Source of the DNA: Lachnospiraceae bacterium
Lineage (GTDB): Bacteria; Bacillota; Clostridia; Lachnospirales; Lachnospiraceae
Assembly (NCBI GenBank): GCA_014804485.1
Contig: JAAUZT010000021.1
Location: forward strand, 31,169 to 95,168
Reading direction: 5' to 3'
Length of the DNA: 64,000 nucleotides
Shown here piece after piece: positions 2,907 to 47,197 of the stretch. A program made the position numbers and the translations under genes. Positions within the stretch are counted from its first letter, which is position 1, and every line of letters begins with the position of its first letter. Below the pieces are notes generated by a model. The model saw only the letters and a list, made by a program, of their open reading frames with translations. It was not told the origin of the DNA and did no database searches.

Positions 2907-3137
2907 GGCAGATTGCACAAAATATTCTCGAAGCTGGCATGCGGAGGAATATGAGATTTTCTTAATATTCCGTTCGATATCCAGAAATTTCGGGACAAGG
3001 ATGTCCCGAAAAGCCCGTAATGAGCCCGGACGGCGAATAGAGGGCGGTTTCGTCCGTCTGCATAACCTTGCCGGAATATTTTAGAAAATCCATATGACGC
3101 AGCCCGCCAGCTTCGAGAATATTTTGCGCAATCTGCC
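2907..3137. repeat. Structured palindromic element, copy 1
   Basis: 32-bp terminal arms 2907-2938 / 3106-3137 pair with one mismatch; inner helix GATTTTCTTAATATTCCG (2955-2972) / CGGAATATTTTAGAAAATC (3072-3090); hairpin TTTCGGGACA-AGGA-TGTCCCGAAA (2988-3011); hairpin CGGACG/CGTCCG (3027-3056). Confidence 0.85.
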
Positions 3138-3352
3138 CTCCCCCGCTTATATCAAAAATGTCCATCACTCAATTGCAAAATTTTCACCGTAAATCCAAAA
3201 CATTCCATAGAATTTCCTACAAAAAAGGACATACATGGAATATCCACACATGCCCTCTTCTAATATACTCTAAATATTTTATACAGAAATCCTCACGGTT
3301 CTATGCCATTGGCTTTTCCAAGATCATCTCAAGCATAATTTCCTGCCATGAC

Positions 3353-12553: not shown

Positions 12554-15500
12554 TTATTTGATTACAAAGTTCTTCACAATAGGCTGTCTCGTGAAGTAAT
12601 TGCCTTTACCCGCGATCGTGACTGTTGCCGTACCGCCTCGTTTGACATTTTTACTGTAAGCCAGCGTATAATCCTTGCCTTCTTTCAGCTTCCTGCCGTT
12701 CACTTTGACAGTAACCTTCGGCTTCAAAGCTTTACCTAAGAAGGTCTGGAACTTCACATCCTCGATGTCAGTCTTAGTGATTTCCGCCTGATCAATGGTA
12801 AAGTTCAGTGTCCTGGACTTCGTATCAGGATCATCATTATCTGTAATCCAACCGTTGCCCTTCACCTTAACAGTGAGTGTAGGCTGCTTCTTACTTACAC
12901 TCATAATATTTATATTATCCTTATAACTTATGCTGTAAGCCGTATTGAGTTTCAAATCAACGGTCTTGCCATTCATATCCCGGAAGGTAACTGCCGGTTT
13001 CAGTGCCTTGCCGCTATAAGTTACGGAAGCTACATCAATGCTGAAATCTTTCAAATTTCGGGCTGACACTGTAAACAGATTCGAAATCTTCACGCTGCCG
13101 CTGTAATTGCCTTTACCTTTGATCGTCGCCGTGACAGGTGCTTTACCGTCCGTCCATTTACCGATCGCATAAGTAACTGTATAATCGCTGCTTGACAGCT
13201 CATTCATCACTTCATTCTGTGCCGCGTCATAGTTCTTAGCGCTGAATCGTAATTCCGGATTCGGTGCATATCCCGTATAAGGAATTTCCAATGAACCATA
13301 TTCCGTCTTATCTTTCGTATCGCTGTTGATCAACAGCCCGCTGTCTTCCGTCGAAGGTGTCCACTTACCGTCCTGCTTCGCTACCACATTCTTCACAGAC
13401 AGTTTCGGTGTCTGAAGCTCTCCCTTCTTGTCTTTATCGCTGTCCTTAGTAACTTCCCCTGCCAGTGTGCGCTTATTGATCGTAAATATCGCTGTCTTGG
13501 TGCCGACATATTTACCCGTACCAGTAATCGTGATCGTAGCCCGTCCTGCATTGGTATTGTTCGTATAGCCTACATAGTAACCGTCCTTATCAGAGTTTAT
13601 ACTATCCTGCTCCGTCAGTACAATGGCTTTTGTACCCGCACCCACTGTCACCTTTATATTCGGTGTGTCGCCGGTTGATGTCAGCTCCACCGGAAGGCCG
13701 GTATAATAGAATTTTCCGCTCACTGCAATCTTCACGTTAGGAATCAGATAATCCTTATCTACCACACGGAAGGATACTGACCGCTCCCCTGCATAATTGA
13801 CTTTCTCTTTCCCAGCAATCTTCACTGCATAAGTGCCCGCTGCCGTAACCTTAGCGATACCGGTCCTGTCTTCTTTAGAATAAATCGTCTCCACTTTATC
13901 TTCTGTAAGTGCAGTTCCGTTTTCATCATGTGTACGCTTGATCTCAATGATCTCATACTGGCTTGCTGCAACTGCTTTCGTGCCGTCTTTCACCGTAATC
14001 TTCGGTGCCTGCGCACTCTTCTCCGCCAGATCCGCTGCTGTCACTGTCGTATTGCTTAAGTCTCTGGGTCTGATCTCGAACGTGAACTTAGTATCACCCG
14101 CCTTACCGCCCGCCTTAAGATCTACGGTTGTTCTCGTCCCCGCAAAGTTTCCTTTACCGGTGATCTTAAGCGTCGGTACTTTCTTGTCATTGATATTCTT
14201 GTAAACAGTCTGACCATCTTCTTCTACACTGTACACACTTGCATTCATATTATTGGTGTACGTAACCGTGTAGTCCGTTCCTTTTGCCAATGTGGCTGTC
14301 TTCTCCACACCGTCCTGATCCGTGTAACTGTATTTCACAGTCACCGAAGGCTCCACCTTCTTGCCGGTATAATAATTCGGGCTGGAAGATACTGTCACTT
14401 CCACTTTTTCCTGGTTGACCGGACATTTTGCAATCGTAAAGGTTGTAGTGATCGAACCCTCTTTGTAACCGCTCGGGTCGTTCAGCGCCTTATCCGTCGG
14501 AAGTACGACAAGCGTTGCTTTGCCGATCTTCTTATTGTTCTGATAATATACCGTGTACAGAGTCGGATCAATCGCTTCTTTACTTTCATCCGTTATATCA
14601 TCTGCAATATCATACAGACTGATCTTAGGCTCAATCTCCTTTTCCTTACCAAGATAGTATACTGCCTGTGCCGCTTTATCTGTTCTGCCGTTCTTGTCAG
14701 GAGACTCGTATACAACCTTCAACTTCTTTGCACTGAATTCTTTTCTGGTATCCTCTTTAATGTCAAATAAGATTTCTCTCGTGCCGGTAAACCTATCACC
14801 CTTCGCAGTCAGCGTAATCTTCGCCTTGCTCTGCTCCGTGGTAAGATTCTTGTTATTCGCATACGCTACCGTATAATCCGCTGTTGTCAGCTTATATCCT
14901 TTATAGGATAATTCTACAACCGGTGTCACATTCTTATCCGTATAGAACTGTGCCGGGATCGGATTCTCGCCTGCCGGACTGTCGCTTTCTCCTGCGTTAA
15001 CCTGCACCAGATAATTACCGGCTTCATCCTTAGCGCTCAAATCGATCTTTTCATTCTCTCCAAAGACACTCTTAAATGTCGCGTTGACTGTTACATTACC
15101 GTTAGGCATCGTAAAGGTATCGCTCTTAGTCTCCGCTGTCTCTGCCGCATAGGTAAGCACTGCCGCATTGACCGTTCTTTCACCGGAAGCAGCCTGAAAT
15201 GCCACCGTACCGTTATTGCTTGTGAGTATATTCTCATAGTTCTCTGCAGTAATGCTTGCACCGGAAAGTGTCATGGTATCCAGATAATATCCCTGATTGG
15301 GCGTAACCGTTACATTTACTTTCTCTCCGCTGTTTGCCTTTATAACACTTATCTCAACGTTACCGTCCTTGATACCGTCGGCTACGGAAATGCTGTGTGT
15401 GCCGTAGAGGTAGAAGTCGTCCAGGCTTCCCCATACTCCGCTTGTGCCTGTCTCCGTCGCCTTGATCGTTACTCCAACTTTAACAGAATCGCCTTTCTCG

Positions 15501-18500
15501 ACCTCAACGCCCGTAATCTCCGGATTACTCCAATTTCGCCATCCGTCTAAAGTAAATGTGGTCTGTCTTCTGAATTTCCTCTCACCGTTCTCGCCAAATA
15601 CTTCCACGAAAGCATACTGCACATCTTCCGTGCCTGCACCGTCACCTTGAATATAACCGCCAAAAGTATAGCTGCCCGCCTCAGGCGTAACAGTCTGCGA
15701 TACGCTAAACTCTGCCGGGTTTTCTGACCAGAAATTCATCGCATAGTTTCCGCTTCTCGGATTTTCTTTCCAGTCTTTTTCCTGACTGCTGACGCAGCTT
15801 TCCACTCCCTCTACCTGCCAATCCGGATGAGCGGTTCCCTTCTCAAATCCCGGATCCTGAAGAATATTGGCAGAAGATGTTCTCACTATTTTAATGGTCA
15901 GTGTCAGTTTATATTCCCTGCCGCCTTCTGTTACGGTTCCGTGTACGATATATTCGCCCACTTTATCCGTATTAACTAATTCCTTCTCCTCCTGATCCCA
16001 CTGAACATCCAATCGCTCATTGGTTCCATCATTATAAGTTGCCACAGCCTTAGGATATTCAAATGTCCCGCCCAGCGGAACCTCCAAAGGATTCTGATCC
16101 TTCGCCAATCCAATACTGGAAATAGCCCTCTCTGCTGTTGCTCCTGTTCTGATCAAGCTGTAAACTTTAGCCGTAGCAAGCGCTGTTCCGTCGAAATCAA
16201 ACCATGACTGGTTATCGACCGCACTTCCGCCATACCACTTGCCGGCATCATCAGGATCATATTCAGAAGCATAACTTGCTGCCCAGCCGGAACCGTACTT
16301 CTCCCATGCCTCTTGGTTCTGCTTAACCAGCTTTTCATCGGCATTGCCATCCTCATCATATACATAATACGGAGATATCCATGCCGGCTCCCAGTAGAAT
16401 ACACCGATAGCCTGCCCCGGCACAGCATCATTGACTCTATTGACCGCATTGACAACATCACGTATCTCATCCGCCTGTCCCTGCAGAGAAATATCATAGT
16501 TCAGAGCCTGTGATGTTCTCGGCGCGGTATTCTCATGTCCGTCACCGTCATCCCAGCTTGTCGTCCATGATGTCTCTGCGACCATGACCTTCTTCTCATA
16601 TGTTTCCGCAACTTCCTTCAATACCTGGTATAGATTATCAGTTGTTCCGTGCCAGAAAGGATAATAAGAGCTTGCAAATACATCATAGTCAACGTTATAC
16701 TTCTTTAAATCCGCTGCCCAGCCCGAATACCATCCTCCTTTTTCGGGATTTGTGAAATGCAGCGCCACAAGGCATTCAGGGTCGAATTTCCTTACCGCTT
16801 TGCTGCCCGCGTTGAAAATCTTCGCCATGTTTTCTCTGGAAGTCTCTCCGCAAATAGCATTGTTAGTCTCATTGCCGACCTGTACCATGCCTACATTAAC
16901 GCCAGCATCTCTAAGAGCATTCAAGCTCGACAAGGTATAAGACTCTACCTCTGCCTCCTTCTCTGCTAAACTAAATGCTTTCCACGCCTTTGGTGCCTGC
17001 TGCTTCGCCGGGTCTGCCCAGAAATCCGAATAGTGGAAATCAATCAGAACTTTCATACCGGCATCTGTAGCCAGCTTACCCATGACCTTGGCTTTCTCTA
17101 AATCGTTGTTACCGCCGCCGTAACCTCTACCGCTCCCATCATAAGGATCGTTCCAGATACGGATACGTACCCAGTTCGTACCGCCGGCTTTCAGATATTC
17201 AAAAAATTCTGCGTCAGAAAGAGGATTACCCTCCTCATCCTTGAATACAGTTCCGCTATCTCTGAGCGATATATAGGAAGATAAGTCAGCGCCTGTGATG
17301 AAGTTACTGCTCAGCTCTACCTTCTGTACATTGATATCCGCTTCCAACGCTCCTATCGGAACTAAAGCCTTTATTGCCGCTGCCAAGTCATCATAAGCTT
17401 TATTGATCTGCGCTTCGGTGGGCGCTTCCTTGGTTGCATCCTCCTCCGCTTCCTCTGCCGCTTTCAATACCACTTCTGCTGCCGCCAGTGCGACTGTAAA
17501 TTCTTTCCAGCCTTTCTCCTTGTAATCTTCTTCCTTGAGCTCCTTAGCTTCCTCTACAAGCGTCTGTAATTTATCCAGAAGTGACAGATTCGCATCAGGA
17601 TCTGCTTCCTCCAGCGTTGCATAGAATGCACCATCTTTATAATAGGTCTTACCTGCGAAGACAGGGGTAATGTCAATACCGTAACTATTGGTCTGTCCAT
17701 TCACCAGATTCTTTTCCCATTCAAAACTGCCGGTAGCATCTTTCATATATAGATTACTTACCTTTTTGTCATCAAAGGTAAGTTCACCCGGCACAGAGAA
17801 AGTGATTGAATACCAATTCTCATGTTCCGAATCCGCCGCAAAAGGATATCCGACACTTCCGTCAACTGTCTCTTCCCCTTGCGGTTTTGCTGCTTCACCT
17901 GTTGTCTCGTCCACTACAACAATGGTACTATCCTTGCACTCCGCATCCTTCGCCACCTGCAGATAAGGTGTCTTTTCTGCACTATACATATGCAAGGTAA
18001 CCTGCCGCATGATCGATGTAGCCATGCTTCCCGCATACCCTACATCATTTTTAACCGCATAGGAATCATCATCTCCGGATATCACTTTGCCAAAGAATTC
18101 CGTATCACCTTTCGAGGCTTCACAAATATATTCCGCAACCTTATCAGTATCGTTCTCGGAAAGTGCAACAGACTTCTTAAAAATCTGGAATCCCGCATCT
18201 TTTCCGTTATTTGTGAAGCTAATCGGAACGCTGTACCATCCCGCGTATCCTTCTACCGCGGTCATTGAATAGGTATCGTCCGCTCCCCATACAGTCCACG
18301 TTGCCTGCGCTGCCTTTGAGGTTAAATCAGCTCCCCAGTGATACAATCCGATTTCTTCTTCCTCTTCCATATCACCGGCATAATAATAGAATGTCACATC
18401 AACACTCAAAGACACCATTGCGTCCATTGCACTCTTCAGGATCTTATATGCTTTTGTAATTTCGTAGTCTGTAAAGTCATCAGGCTCGTTAGCAAAATCT

Positions 18501-20740
18501 TTTAATTTTTCCGTTACATAATTCTTAGCCTCGCTAAATTCTTTCCATGATTCTGCCGTATAACCTGCCTCGCCTTTATTCTCAATCTTCTTGAGCTCAT
18601 CAGAACCCAATAGTTCTCTGAGCTGGGCAAGCGTTACTGCCTCTGCTGCATCTTGAGAGGCATAGAAGGTGAGCTTGACGTTATCACCCTCATGCTCATA
18701 TTTACAATAAGTCTTGCCAGCAAAGACAGGTGTAAAATCAATCCCCCATTCATCATCTTTTCCATTCATCAAATTCTTCGACCATGCATATCCCTTGTCT
18801 GTCTTCTCAAACAACCCGCAAATCTTTTTTTCGTCAAATTTGATTGCACCCGGTACTGAAAAAGATAAGGTATACCAATTCTCAGCATCCTGCATTTTCT
18901 CCATATCATAAACAGGATTGTTGTCTGTTTCATTATCTACTCCTGAGGTATCGATAAGAGAAATATTACCATTATCTTCATTTACCACAAATAACTTTGC
19001 AGCCGCTGAATTTTTATCCAACTGAATTACGGGTATCACATCTTCACTGTACACATTCAGAGTGATATTTCGCATAATTGCAGTTGCTTTATCAACCTTG
19101 GTAGTTTCATCGGTTCCAATATAACTTTTACCATTTTTATAGGCACAGGTTTTATTCTTGCCACCTACTATCTGGGCATAAGTATCAACGTTATCAGTAT
19201 TGTCATATTTTACTTTGAATACGGGCGAGCCATCGGTACTTTTTACATAAATCTCAAACCCTGATTCCTGGTCTGCATCTTCTAAATGAATCGGAATACT
19301 GTACCATCCCGCATATCCCGATACTGCCTCGAATAAATAGACCTTATCACTTGTATTTACTGTCCAGTCTGCCTTTGTAGCCGTCGTAGTGACCTTGTTA
19401 TCTTTGCAGTACAGACCTACTTCCTCACTATCTGTGGCATCCTCAAGATAGTAGTAGAAAGTTATATCTCCATCCGTCTGGGTTTCATCCTCTATCGCGT
19501 CAGAGAACGTTTTGTCCTTATAATATACTTTACCTACAAAGACAGGGGTAAAATCAGTCTGCCAATTGTTTTCAGTCGGACCATTCACGAAATCCGTAAC
19601 CCACGTACTTGTACCTGTATACAAACCACAGATTTTTTCTTCGCTGTTAAAGTCAAATGTGCCAGGAGCAGAAAATGTAATGGAATACCAATTTACATGC
19701 TTTGTATCCGGCTCAAGAGCATAGCCAGTGTCACCATCGACTTCCACTGAGTCCAGCTGCGTCAATTTACCGGTTTCCCCATCCACATCCACTCTCGAAA
19801 GTGTTGATTCTGTCGCATCGTGCATCTGTAGATATGGTGTGTTCGTAGCATCATACACATACAAGGTGACTTGCCGCATGATAGCCGTAACCATGTCAGT
19901 TGTGCCATCGTTAGCGTAACCCTTCCAATCTTTAACTGCATAGGATTCTATACCATCCTCCAGTAACTTCTTGTAGATTTCTGGATTGCCATCCGACCAT
20001 CCGCTAAAACCTGCAATCTTCTTTGCCTCCTCGTCTAATACCTTCCTATAGATATCAAAACCTGCTTTAGAACCACCACCGTTTTCCTTGACTTCCTCAT
20101 TCTCATTCGAAAGCGTCATATCAATCGTATACCAATTAGAATACCCTTCTACAGGCTTCATTAAATAATAACGATCGTTCCATTCTGCTTTCTTAGCTTC
20201 CTGGGACATAGTAATAATCCCCGACTCACCCCATACATCAATCCCAAGCTCAAACGACTCTGCCTCATTTTCATCAGGTTTCCAATAAAAATAGAACTGC
20301 ATCGCATCACTACTACCATTGCTATCATCCTCGACAGCCATAACACCCTTAGAATCTTCCCGAAGCTCAGCCGCTTCTTCAACATCCTTCATGTCATCGC
20401 CGTCTTCAGAGTCTGCCTCATCATCAGCCAATTTCTCATCGTCGTCCTCACCCTGCTCGCCCGAAGCACCCTCGTCCTTCTGGCCAGGATCATCCTGATC
20501 GGCATCCTCCGCTCCGCCCGCAACATCATTATCTGCATCGGAATTTCCAATCTCATCATTCTCACTCGTCTCCGCGGACGGTGTCTCGTTGATCTGCTCA
20601 TCAGCCTCCGTGAAATCTTCCACATTCGTCTGAGCCGCCTGCACTGCCATATCAGGAATCGTCGATCCCGCCAATATCATTGCCGCACTTAAGACTCCAC
20701 ACAGACTTCTTCGCAAATACTGTCTTAACTGTTTCCTCAT
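12554..20740 (-). CDS. Very large secreted modular protein with GH53 endo-beta-1,4-galactanase domain
   Basis: Signal peptide; GH53 core approx. 16140-17345 ([66 protein letters not shown]); FIVAR-like linkers; Big_4-like and CBM-like regions; long C-terminal MBG-like repeats. Confidence 0.95.
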   Translation of the reverse strand: [2728 protein letters not shown]

Positions 20741-21194: not shown

Positions 21195-23591
21195 CTATTC
21201 CAATTCCAACGACTGCACCATCCCATTGACATGCTTCGGATCCACCGTAGGGCTGCCCAGCGTAAAGAACCGCTCGCCCCACTCACCGATCTGCACTGGG
21301 CAGGTAATCAGTGAGAGTCTGCTAAACTGAATCTCATCCGTCTCGGCAAGCTTCAAGCCAATGGAAGTGACGAAATTAAGCGAGTGTCCGTCATCATCCA
21401 TGGAATATGCCATCGAGGATCCGTCCCAGAATACATCCTCCACTGTGTAATCCTTGTATAAGGATATGTCTATGCCGCCTTTGACAGCGGCACCGTCTTC
21501 AAGCAGCAATACTTTTTCATTTTTCGGATCAACCCGGAAGCTGACCTTATCCCGAAACTGCTTCTGATAATCTTCTTCATCAAAGGCATACAAATCTATC
21601 GTTCCCGTATCGTATCTGTCCACCAGATAAAGCTTCCATCTCTCACTGCTGCCCGTATTCTCAAGGCACATCTGAAATGCAAATGTTCTGGGTAGCCCAT
21701 CCTGTGTCTGCTCCAGCATAAATACTTCCGGCTTAAGTCCCGTCGGCAGCCACGGCAAGTCCAGGCTGTTGACATCTCCGTCAATCATCATCTTCACGCC
21801 GCGGCAGCCATACTGTTCCGTATACAGCCCGTAGAAATCTATGCCGTACTCCTCATCTTTATGAATCAGATACCACGTGCCGTCTTCCAGCGGGAATTGT
21901 CCGCCGTTATACAGATAATCATAATATGCCGCGGCGTCAACCACCGCCGCCGCTATCAGCGCATCATCCGTCATGGACCACAACATATCCTCAAATTCCT
22001 TCGCTGTAGCCTGATTCCATTCTGTCTTGATCCGTTTAAGCTCCTTCTGTACCTGTGCCTCTTCTTCCTCTATTGCCGTCTTTTGCGCTTTGAGCTCTTC
22101 AAGCCACTGTAGCAGCTCTGTCTCTTCCGCCGCCTTTTGCGCCTCAAGTTCTTCAAGATTCTGCCGCATCTGTGCCTCTTCCGCCTCGTCCACAGCTTTT
22201 GCCACCGCTTCCCGCTCTCTCTCCAGCTCTGCGGCAATCCGCTCCATTTCTTCCAGTTCTTCCCACCTACGCTGTATCTGCTCCGCTTCTGCTGCCTGTA
22301 CCGCTGCCTGTTCCTCTTCCGCTGCCTGTATTGCCGCCTTTACCGCCTCCTCATGTCCTGCGGCTTCAATCTCCTGTGCGGTTTCCGCTCCGGTATAAGC
22401 ACATCCGCACAACAGAATGACAGTCAACGCCACGATTCCCGTTATGATTTTGCTCCTTTTCCTTACGTCCGCGATCATAACTATGCGCTGCCGTATCCGC
22501 CTGCTGCTGCCGTCCATGGTCAATACCACGCTGTTTGCGCCGCTCCGGGTATGTTCGACATTCATCAGTTCAAGCAGCGTCCTGCCATAAGAGAACCGCT
22601 GCGTCTCTCCCAGCAGCCCGACCGCCCGCTCATCGCAGGCAAGTTCACTGTCCTGCTTCGCCTCATATGCCGCCAGCCACACAAGCGGATGAAACCACCA
22701 GACTGTACACAATATGCTGCGCACCGCTGCCCACAAGGTATCTCCCTGCACGGCATGCGCATATTCGTGCGCCAGAATATGAAGTCTGATCTCCTCTTCC
22801 TTATACAGCTCCGGGCTGATATAGATACCCTTTCCAGCCATACACGGACCGGGCAGCCCATTCACCAGCCAGACCCGTATCCCATGATCCGTCAGCCGCT
22901 TCGTCCATACCGCAGGCAGGCAGTCTGTCTGTGCCCTCTCCCTGGTTCGATGCAGATACACGATGAATCGCATCTGTCTAAACAGCGCGAATCCGCCCAC
23001 AGCGATCACACCCGAAACCCATATCATAACAATCGCCATACGAAAGCCTGCATAGGATCTTTCCCCCAATCCGTACCACGTCTGCATACCCTGTCTGTCC
23101 GCTGGTGAATCTGCCGGATTTGCTTCCATCTCTGTACCATCTGTTTCCGTTCCCGCCATACCTGCTGCCATGCCGCTTACGTCCATCCTTGCACCGTCTG
23201 CCGCCGCTCCTGCCGTCATGCCGCTTACGCCTGACCCTGCAGCCGTTAGGGCTGATTCTATCCCTGCCGACATATCCCGCAAAGCCTCCTTCGCATTCCC
23301 GGCATTTGCAGATGCCCCTGCGGTCATCTCATTGCTTCCGTTGTTTTCATCCACACTATTCTTATATATCTCTTCTGCTCCTGCCGCACCCACATAATAC
23401 TGTGATATTCCCTGCACCGCATTCATAATGCTGAACGAACTGCTGCCGAAGCTGACCGGCAGGATCATGCGCACCGCTACCACAAGCCACAGCGCATAGC
23501 GCATCCCCATACTGATTCTGCCATATGTCAGCCGCCGCAGTACCAGAATCACACAGATCAGAATCGTACCGCTTACAATCATATCCGTCAT
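21195..23591 (-). CDS. BlaR1/MecR1-like M56 family membrane metallopeptidase with coiled-coil and unknown C-terminal domain
   Basis: LHILAHEYAHAVQGDTLWAAVRSILCTVWWFHPLVWLAAYEAKQDSELACDERAV; TM then Glu/Ala-rich coiled coil. Confidence 0.9.
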   Translation of the reverse strand: MTDMIVSGTILICVILVLRRLTYGRISMGMRYALWLVVAVRMILPVSFGSSSFSIMNAVQGISQYYVGAAGAEEIYKNSVDENNGSNEMTAGASANAGNAKEALRDMSAGIESALTAAGSGVSGMTAGAAADGARMDVSGMAAGMAGTETDGTEMEANPADSPADRQGMQTWYGLGERSYAGFRMAIVMIWVSGVIAVGGFALFRQMRFIVYLHRTRERAQTDCLPAVWTKRLTDHGIRVWLVNGLPGPCMAGKGIYISPELYKEEEIRLHILAHEYAHAVQGDTLWAAVRSILCTVWWFHPLVWLAAYEAKQDSELACDERAVGLLGETQRFSYGRTLLELMNVEHTRSGANSVVLTMDGSSRRIRQRIVMIADVRKRSKIITGIVALTVILLCGCAYTGAETAQEIEAAGHEEAVKAAIQAAEEEQAAVQAAEAEQIQRRWEELEEMERIAAELEREREAVAKAVDEAEEAQMRQNLEELEAQKAAEETELLQWLEELKAQKTAIEEEEAQVQKELKRIKTEWNQATAKEFEDMLWSMTDDALIAAAVVDAAAYYDYLYNGGQFPLEDGTWYLIHKDEEYGIDFYGLYTEQYGCRGVKMMIDGDVNSLDLPWLPTGLKPEVFMLEQTQDGLPRTFAFQMCLENTGSSERWKLYLVDRYDTGTIDLYAFDEEDYQKQFRDKVSFRVDPKNEKVLLLEDGAAVKGGIDISLYKDYTVEDVFWDGSSMAYSMDDDGHSLNFVTSIGLKLAETDEIQFSRLSLITCPVQIGEWGERFFTLGSPTVDPKHVNGMVQSLELE

Positions 23592-23646
23592 CTGTCACTC
23601 TCTCCCTTCCGCTCACAAGATTCCCGACCTCTCCTCCGCACTCTTC

Positions 23647-24027
23647 TCATTCAGCGCTGCTTTCCGCTTCTGCCCTGCGCAGGATCTCATACATCTCCGC
23701 GATCTCTTCTTTCGACAATGCCTTCCTCTCCACCATGGTATTGAGCATCAGCCCCATTCGGCCGTCGAAGACTTTCTCCAGGAACTCTTCCGTCTCCTGC
23801 TGCACTGCCTCATCCCTGCCTACATCCGGATAATACAGCTTCGCCCGCTCTCCTTCCTCATGATGAATCGCTCCCTTCTCCTCCATGCGCCGCAGGAAAG
23901 TCATCACCGTATGCTTTGTCCATCCCGTCGTCTCCTTGAAATGATTGGTGATCTGCATCATCGTCTGCGGCGCTTCCTGCCACAACATACTCATCACCTT
24001 CCATTCCGCCTCCGATAATCTAACCAT
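23647..24027 (-). CDS. BlaI/MecI/CopY family transcriptional regulator
   Basis: LSEAEWKVMSMLWQEAPQTMMQITNHFKETTGWTKHTVMTFLRRMEEKGAIHHEEG. Confidence 0.94.
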   Translation of the reverse strand: MVRLSEAEWKVMSMLWQEAPQTMMQITNHFKETTGWTKHTVMTFLRRMEEKGAIHHEEGERAKLYYPDVGRDEAVQQETEEFLEKVFDGRMGLMLNTMVERKALSKEEIAEMYEILRRAEAESSAE

Positions 24028-24152: not shown

Positions 24153-24379
24153 GGCAGATTGCGACAAACGCTCTCTCGTGTCATGCGCAGTCAAATGTGA
24201 TTTTCTTAATATTCCGCTCACAGTCAGCAATTGCGGGACACGGATGTCCCGCAAAGCCCGAAACGAGCCCGGATGGCTCATTGAGGGCGGTTGCGTCCGT
24301 CCTCCACCACCTATCCCGGAATATTATAGAAAATCCATTCGACGAAGCCGACACGAGAGAGCGTTTGTCGCAATCTGCC
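24153..24379. repeat. Structured palindromic element, copy 2
   Basis: 30-bp perfect terminal arms 24153-24182 / 24350-24379; conserved core with copy 1: GATTTTCTTAATATTCCG, TTGCGGGACA-CGGA-TGTCCCGCAA (24231-24254), CGGATG/CGTCCG, CCCGGAATATTATAGAAAATCCA. Confidence 0.85.
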
Positions 24380-46939: not shown

Positions 46940-47130
46940 CACTCGCAGTCGCTGCATAAGAGGATTCCATTGTCCGGATATTTCGACTCGGCATTATACC
47001 GGACCGCCTTCTCAGAGATTCTCCAATGGCTTGTCCCGAAATGTGGCTTTCGGTCAGACCGGTACAATCAAACATGCCTCACGGCGACGGGCTCGTACAG
47101 GATTCGCACCTGTTTCCCCGAACAATTCTT
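46940..47130 (-). ncRNA. Cobalamin riboswitch
   Basis: Minus strand CGGGGAAACAGGTGCGAATCCTGTACGAGCCCGTCGCCGTGA ... AAGCCATTGGAGAATCTCTGAGAAGGCGG ... GCCGAGTCGAAATATCCGG match the conserved aptamer segments. Confidence 0.88.
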
Positions 47131-47197
47131 TTCTATCATAATCTTTTGCATCTGCTTAGTCAATTAATAAATCTCTATGAGCATCTGCAGCTCTTAA

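Follow-up and report, generated by a model that had tools for sequence, protein, structure and literature searches.

The window analyzed here, a stretch of 64,000 nucleotides of contig JAAUZT010000021.1 from a Lachnospiraceae bacterium, contains two copies of a structured element, both on the forward strand. The features read on the reverse strand include a gene for a 2728-aa protein with GH53 (endo-galactanase type) and Ig-like domains (12554-20740), a pair encoding a BlaR1-type M56 peptidase and a BlaI-type repressor (21195-24027), and a cobalamin riboswitch (46956-47151, 41 bits). Copy 2 of the element is located upstream of the BlaI-type repressor gene.

In copy 1, the 5' inner arm GGCAGATTGCACAAAATATTCTCGAAGCTGGC (2907-2938) pairs at 31 of 32 positions with the 3' inner arm (3106-3137). 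The arms enclose a core (2939-3105) with two hairpins, the first being TTTCGGGACA-AGGA-TGTCCCGAAA (2988-3011, GGA at 2999-3001) and the second carrying the loop GAGCCCGGACGGC (3013-3045, GGA at 3028-3030). Outside the arms are a left outer terminal repeat with its spacer (2869-2906), aligned to the family terminal repeat GATTCGGGTGTCAAAAGGTGC, and a right outer terminal repeat (3138-3175), placed by the family alignment; both are decayed, with an identity between them (0.48) equal to the random expectation (0.48). In copy 2, the 5' inner arm GGCAGATTGCGACAAACGCTCTCTCGTGTC (24153-24182) pairs at 30 of 30 positions with the 3' inner arm (24350-24379), around a core at 24183-24350. The terminal repeats of both copies are decayed and a target duplication is not readable in either. 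The long paired arms described in the initial annotation are confirmed by these counts and by the predicted folds, of -116.6 kcal/mol (z -11.3) for copy 1 and -133.9 kcal/mol (z -16.5) for copy 2, with none of 200 shuffled sequences being equally stable in either case.

Next to copy 1 (2840-2880), relatives carry an inserted second palindromic repeat (GGCACTTAGTGAGGTATTTCACGAACTTAGTGCC within ~90 bp) at a point where the window has none. This repeat adjoins the element at loci L062 and L252, and a related form is present at L255. Another repeat, GTAGCGGTAC..GGCTGCAAAACACGCAGCC..GTACCGACGG, is found directly upstream of many copies in the congener G011 (L213, L218, L223 and others).

The TwoAYGGAY core

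Both window copies match the TwoAYGGAY model of Rfam (RF01731) over its full length, with 106.8 bits (E 4.6e-18) for copy 1 and 107.0 bits (E 4.2e-18) for copy 2, far above the gathering score of 43 bits. The dispersed structured RNA family that had been suspected from the two copies is therefore this one, with 33 copies in the genome of the window. TwoAYGGAY was reported in 2010 as a probable RNA, not cis-regulatory and without a function (PMC2864571), and the element shares with it the core sequence, the structure and the two GGA hairpins. In 2014, the two GGA hairpins were proposed to bind CsrA, as a hypothesis awaiting validation (PMC4333381), and Rfam 15 added further covarying pairs (PMC11701678). 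The known family accounts for the core only, since the Rfam model ends there and includes neither the inner arms and terminal repeats nor the target duplication and the multi-copy mobility. The core is thus already known; the literature searched contained no description of what surrounds the core and no paper tying miniature inverted-repeat elements (MITEs) to CsrA or to TwoAYGGAY.

In copy 1 the hairpin loops are AAGGAU and CCGGAC; in copy 2 they are ACGGAU and CCGGAU. All four have GGA, and the strict AYGGAY form is found only in hairpin 1 of copy 2. The compensatory change of a core pair between the copies, TTTCGGGACA/TGTCCCGAAA in copy 1 versus TTGCGGGACA/TGTCCCGCAA in copy 2, is real and belongs to a wider pattern: 30 core pairs are doubly changed, whereas shuffles gave 15.0 and slid controls 8-14. 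In the same covariation count, 95% of the cells of GGA hairpin 1 (helix 3) are paired, and GGA hairpin 2 (helix 4) has changes on both sides at ten pairs. Selection on structure is clear in the core.

The mobile unit and its distribution

The complete unit has ~320 bp and includes outer terminal inverted repeats, a 7-bp target duplication, inner arms of 30 bp and the core. In the alignment of copies, the family consensus terminal repeat GATTCGGGTGTCAAAAGGTGC is found at both ends, ~40 bases beyond the inner arms. Among 33 non-redundant copies having both terminal repeats, an excess of direct repeats was found at the 7-bp offset only (63% match versus 36%, p=0.0005), with eight perfect duplications, such as TCTATAG, CTATAGA, ATTATAG and CTATATG. 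The element adjacent to gpmI is present in L062 alone among 80 named relatives with gpmI, and the four relatives examined for the gpmI-GntR order (L063, L065, L067, L069) keep this order with a short gap and no element. Derivatives with the core deleted were also found (L142, L287), and the neighboring genes differ at each copy. One of these derivatives (L142, G000:C6:148136) and L007 (G000:C23:49644) form a near-duplicate site without and with the core in one assembly, which is probably a strain mixture in the metagenome-assembled genome; the loss of the core occurred between the arms.

An insertion sequence (IS) in the congeners G003 and G011 ends in GATTAGGGTGTCAAAAGGTCA, differing at 3 of 21 positions from the terminal repeat of the element, with similarly AT-rich flanks. 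It encodes a DUF772 transposase, for which the best of the three families listed was NCBIfam NF033551 (IS1182) with 92.4 bits, below the cut-off of 270. In the assembly of the window genome, no autonomous element or transposase with these ends was found, either by terminal-repeat pattern or by protein. This and the low IS1182 score weigh against a mobile element, as do the decayed ends of the two window copies. On the basis of the terminal repeats, the 7-bp duplication, the related IS and the empty sites, the element is MITE-like, and the non-autonomous mobile element put forward at first as a candidate is borne out. Similarly to other bacterial MITEs, which are non-autonomous derivatives of DDE transposons, it is short, lacks ORFs, has terminal inverted repeats and a target duplication, occurs in bursts and has a related IS bearing a similar terminal repeat; unlike them, its body is a conserved structured RNA and its inner arms homogenize while the terminal repeats decay. 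The terminal repeats and the target duplication spoke against an identity with REP/RAYT elements, which was dropped; retron-type a1/a2 arms, suggested by the long paired ends, were dropped too, since a Pfam search found no reverse transcriptase among 14 ORFs of the window. The right terminal repeat also contains an outward TTGACA (CACCTTTTGACACCCGAATC), a possible -35 box for adjacent genes.

In addition to the genome of the window, 20 of 36 congeners carry the element, with 1-27 copies each, and the rest have none, the occupied sites being patchy. TwoAYGGAY was found in no other genus of a small order-level sample; in a class sample of 394 genomes, it was present in 37 genomes of 24 genera and 12 families, and the ten genomes of this sample that were searched again all had multiple copies (2 to 23). 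Fourteen insertions are common to the window genome and the congener G027, so many copies are not recent. The phage and plasmid collections had no match to the element.

A complete genome of another family (G097) has 18 copies of the core, mostly near-identical, within an element that ends in CTGCGATTCGTAATATA and has direct repeats of 8-11 bases, its ends differing from those of the element described above. These CTGCGATTCGTAATATA ends also frame other short elements lacking the core. ORFs and repeat pairs were examined by reading 18 stretches around single terminal repeats of this genome; no pair of repeats framed an ORF large enough for a transposase. The presence of the same core between other ends indicates that two or more unrelated types of transposon have carried it.

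GGA loops and the association with csrA

Across 133 copies, GGA is conserved at 0.97-1.00 in both loops, versus 0.4-0.9 at other unpaired positions, while the loop base preceding GGA and the internal loops vary freely. The gene csrA was found in 127 of the 394 genomes of the class sample, including 32 of the 37 TwoAYGGAY-positive genomes versus 95 of the 357 others (p=9e-13), and the five positive genomes without it have csrA-positive congeners in every case. At the level of genera, csrA is present in all 24 with TwoAYGGAY and in 77 of 223 overall (p=5e-13). The association is drawn from the class sample, since csrA is near-universal in the genus of the window, where the window genome itself has it directly after a FliW-like ORF (identity read from sequence). 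It may in part reflect motility or phylogeny; the positives span 12 families. CGA replaces GGA in one hairpin of G036 copies (L032, L052 and others) and at L297, L301, L306, L309 and L312, as well as in several other genera, a point that a pure CsrA reading must explain.

The CsrA-sequestering small RNAs CsrB/CsrC and RsmX/Y/Z have many sites each and come from one or a few regulated genes. The hairpins resemble the short GGA-loop hairpins of these RNAs in being paired and in occurring in csrA-bearing hosts; they differ in that there are two predicted sites per unit, scattered on a transposable element, and known here from sequence. As an extension of the 2014 proposal, TwoAYGGAY is a candidate transposon-borne CsrA decoy, which is our best functional guess, with a probability that approaches even. 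The AYGGAY-strand RNA would present two hairpins with GGA loops, borne on a long stem, for binding by CsrA, and each copy would act as a movable CsrA decoy or a CsrA-responsive site. A broader proposal, made tentatively, is that two or more unrelated MITE families have each taken up this putative decoy module, one with a 7-bp duplication and GATTCGGGTGTCAAAA ends and another, in G097, with 8-11 bp and CTGCGATTCGTAATATA, so that transposons would both spread and multiply the predicted sites of a global regulator in Clostridia and self-copying of the palindrome would keep the stem without selection.

Possible too, although we hold it doubtful, is a purely selfish MITE, with the hairpins as passengers or serving transposition, the RNA functionless and CsrA irrelevant. 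Copy bursts in single genomes and arms without strand-specific wobble tolerance are in its favor, as are the mostly antisense placement relative to neighboring genes and the lack of a convincing promoter, the copies having only weak promoter-like matches. These last two points, together with the lack of a convincing terminator, also count against the CsrA reading. It accounts poorly, however, for the persistence of the GGA loops and the hairpin pair over 24 genera in which all stems have diverged, for one core with two unrelated types of terminal repeats, and for the strict association with csrA genera.

Inner arms, orientation and origin of the element

The arms had been described as different between the copies yet complementary within each, which holds; the inner 20 nt, however, are not completely different, as had been stated, and can be aligned. 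In comparison with the 33-copy family, the arms of each window copy prove to be variants of GGCAGATTGCACAAAATGTTCTC that continue into either of two inner ends, namely CGAAGCTGTC for copy 1 and CTCGTGTC for copy 2. These inner ends are alleles of unequal length, and copies are A/B, A/A or B/B; with the arm types assigned by eye from the arm sequences, the core tree needs eight or more changes to account for their states, three of them forced by strong branches. Private arm variants occur in both arms of a copy. In 50 copies with terminal repeats decayed to chance, the inner-arm identity has a median of 100% and a minimum of 90%, and both window copies share this combination of decayed terminal repeats and preserved inner arms. 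Among ortholog pairs, L005/L236 has four double arm changes and no single one, L011/L240 a double G-to-T, and L001/L235 a double G-to-C. The 136 arm mismatches in 131 copies include 57 A.C, 38 G.U and 41 transversions; on the AYGGAY strand, G.U is therefore not above A.C, and there is no wobble preference.

Template switching has been described for inverted repeats and for RNA hairpins (PMC8794818, PMC8604942). Changes in blocks that include indels, double transversions and the lack of wobble preference are as predicted for template switching within a palindrome, and hairpin-templated copying, one of the causes first considered for the arms, is the better supported. The pattern points to template-switch homogenization, more than RNA selection, as what keeps the arms matched: when replication stalls at the hairpin, one inner arm would be copied from the other, so that arms would be unlike between copies and matching within each. 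As in the reported cases of hairpin maintenance (PMC8794818) and of inverted repeats (PMC8604942), the paired changes are multibase and transversional and keep the stems perfect; here, in contrast, they extend over 131 copies of a single mobile family, in which block alleles have been converted both ways. That selection on RNA or cruciform structure, acting through ordinary compensatory mutation, made the arms complementary instead is unlikely. It would be consistent with the strong core covariation and with the long stems of most class-level loci read, but it leaves unexplained the block replacements with change of length, the double transversions, the ortholog pair with four double changes and no single, and the G.U count. 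Selection on arm structure may nevertheless act alongside template switching.

Of 75 non-redundant copies in the genus of the window, 59 lie with the AYGGAY strand antisense to the co-directional genes on either side (59:16, p 6e-7), with gene directions taken from a simple longest-ORF rule and no gene caller. Often, an upstream stop codon lies only tens of bases from the 3' side of the element. The class-level loci have an orientation of 10:9, hence without bias, and young copies with intact ends (20:4) do not differ from old copies with decayed ends (32:9); the comparison gives no sign of a bias that grows by selection. The bias may arise because GGA hairpins are avoided in mRNAs, or because insertion itself is biased. 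The nearby stop codons and the 59:16 bias could also be expected of a REP/BIME-like intergenic element, stabilizing mRNA 3' ends or terminating transcription, but such a role is quite improbable given the stem without a U-tract after it, the position of copy 1 beyond an apparent gpmI terminator hairpin (GGGCATGTGTGGATATTCCATGTATGTCCTTTTTT), the balanced class-level orientation and the equal bias in young and old copies. The Rfam type of RF01731 is Cis-reg; an ordinary chromosomal cis-regulatory RNA, as this implies, is very remote, since neighbors differ per copy, presence is patchy, and the empty sites and target duplications contradict it.

The element is most probably a non-autonomous, MITE-like unit of ~320 bp, with a TwoAYGGAY structured RNA as its body and template-switched arms; its function, graded apart, stays at the lower level given for the CsrA decoy. 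The mobility and the pattern of change in the arms are shown by the data, and from these the transposase, the template switching and the binding of CsrA are inferred. An IS1182-like transposase recognizing the terminal repeat would move the element in trans, and after insertion the terminal repeats would decay. The arms provide a clear case in bacteria of hairpins that template switching probably maintains, and a caution that paired changes in repeat families need not all mean RNA selection. TwoAYGGAY has had no assigned function since 2010, the CsrA sponge of 2014 being the only proposal; because the RNA is multi-copy, carried by transposons with two sets of ends that are unrelated, and limited to csrA genera, that proposal is directly testable, with the copy number as a natural dosage series of 0 to 33 copies within one genus.
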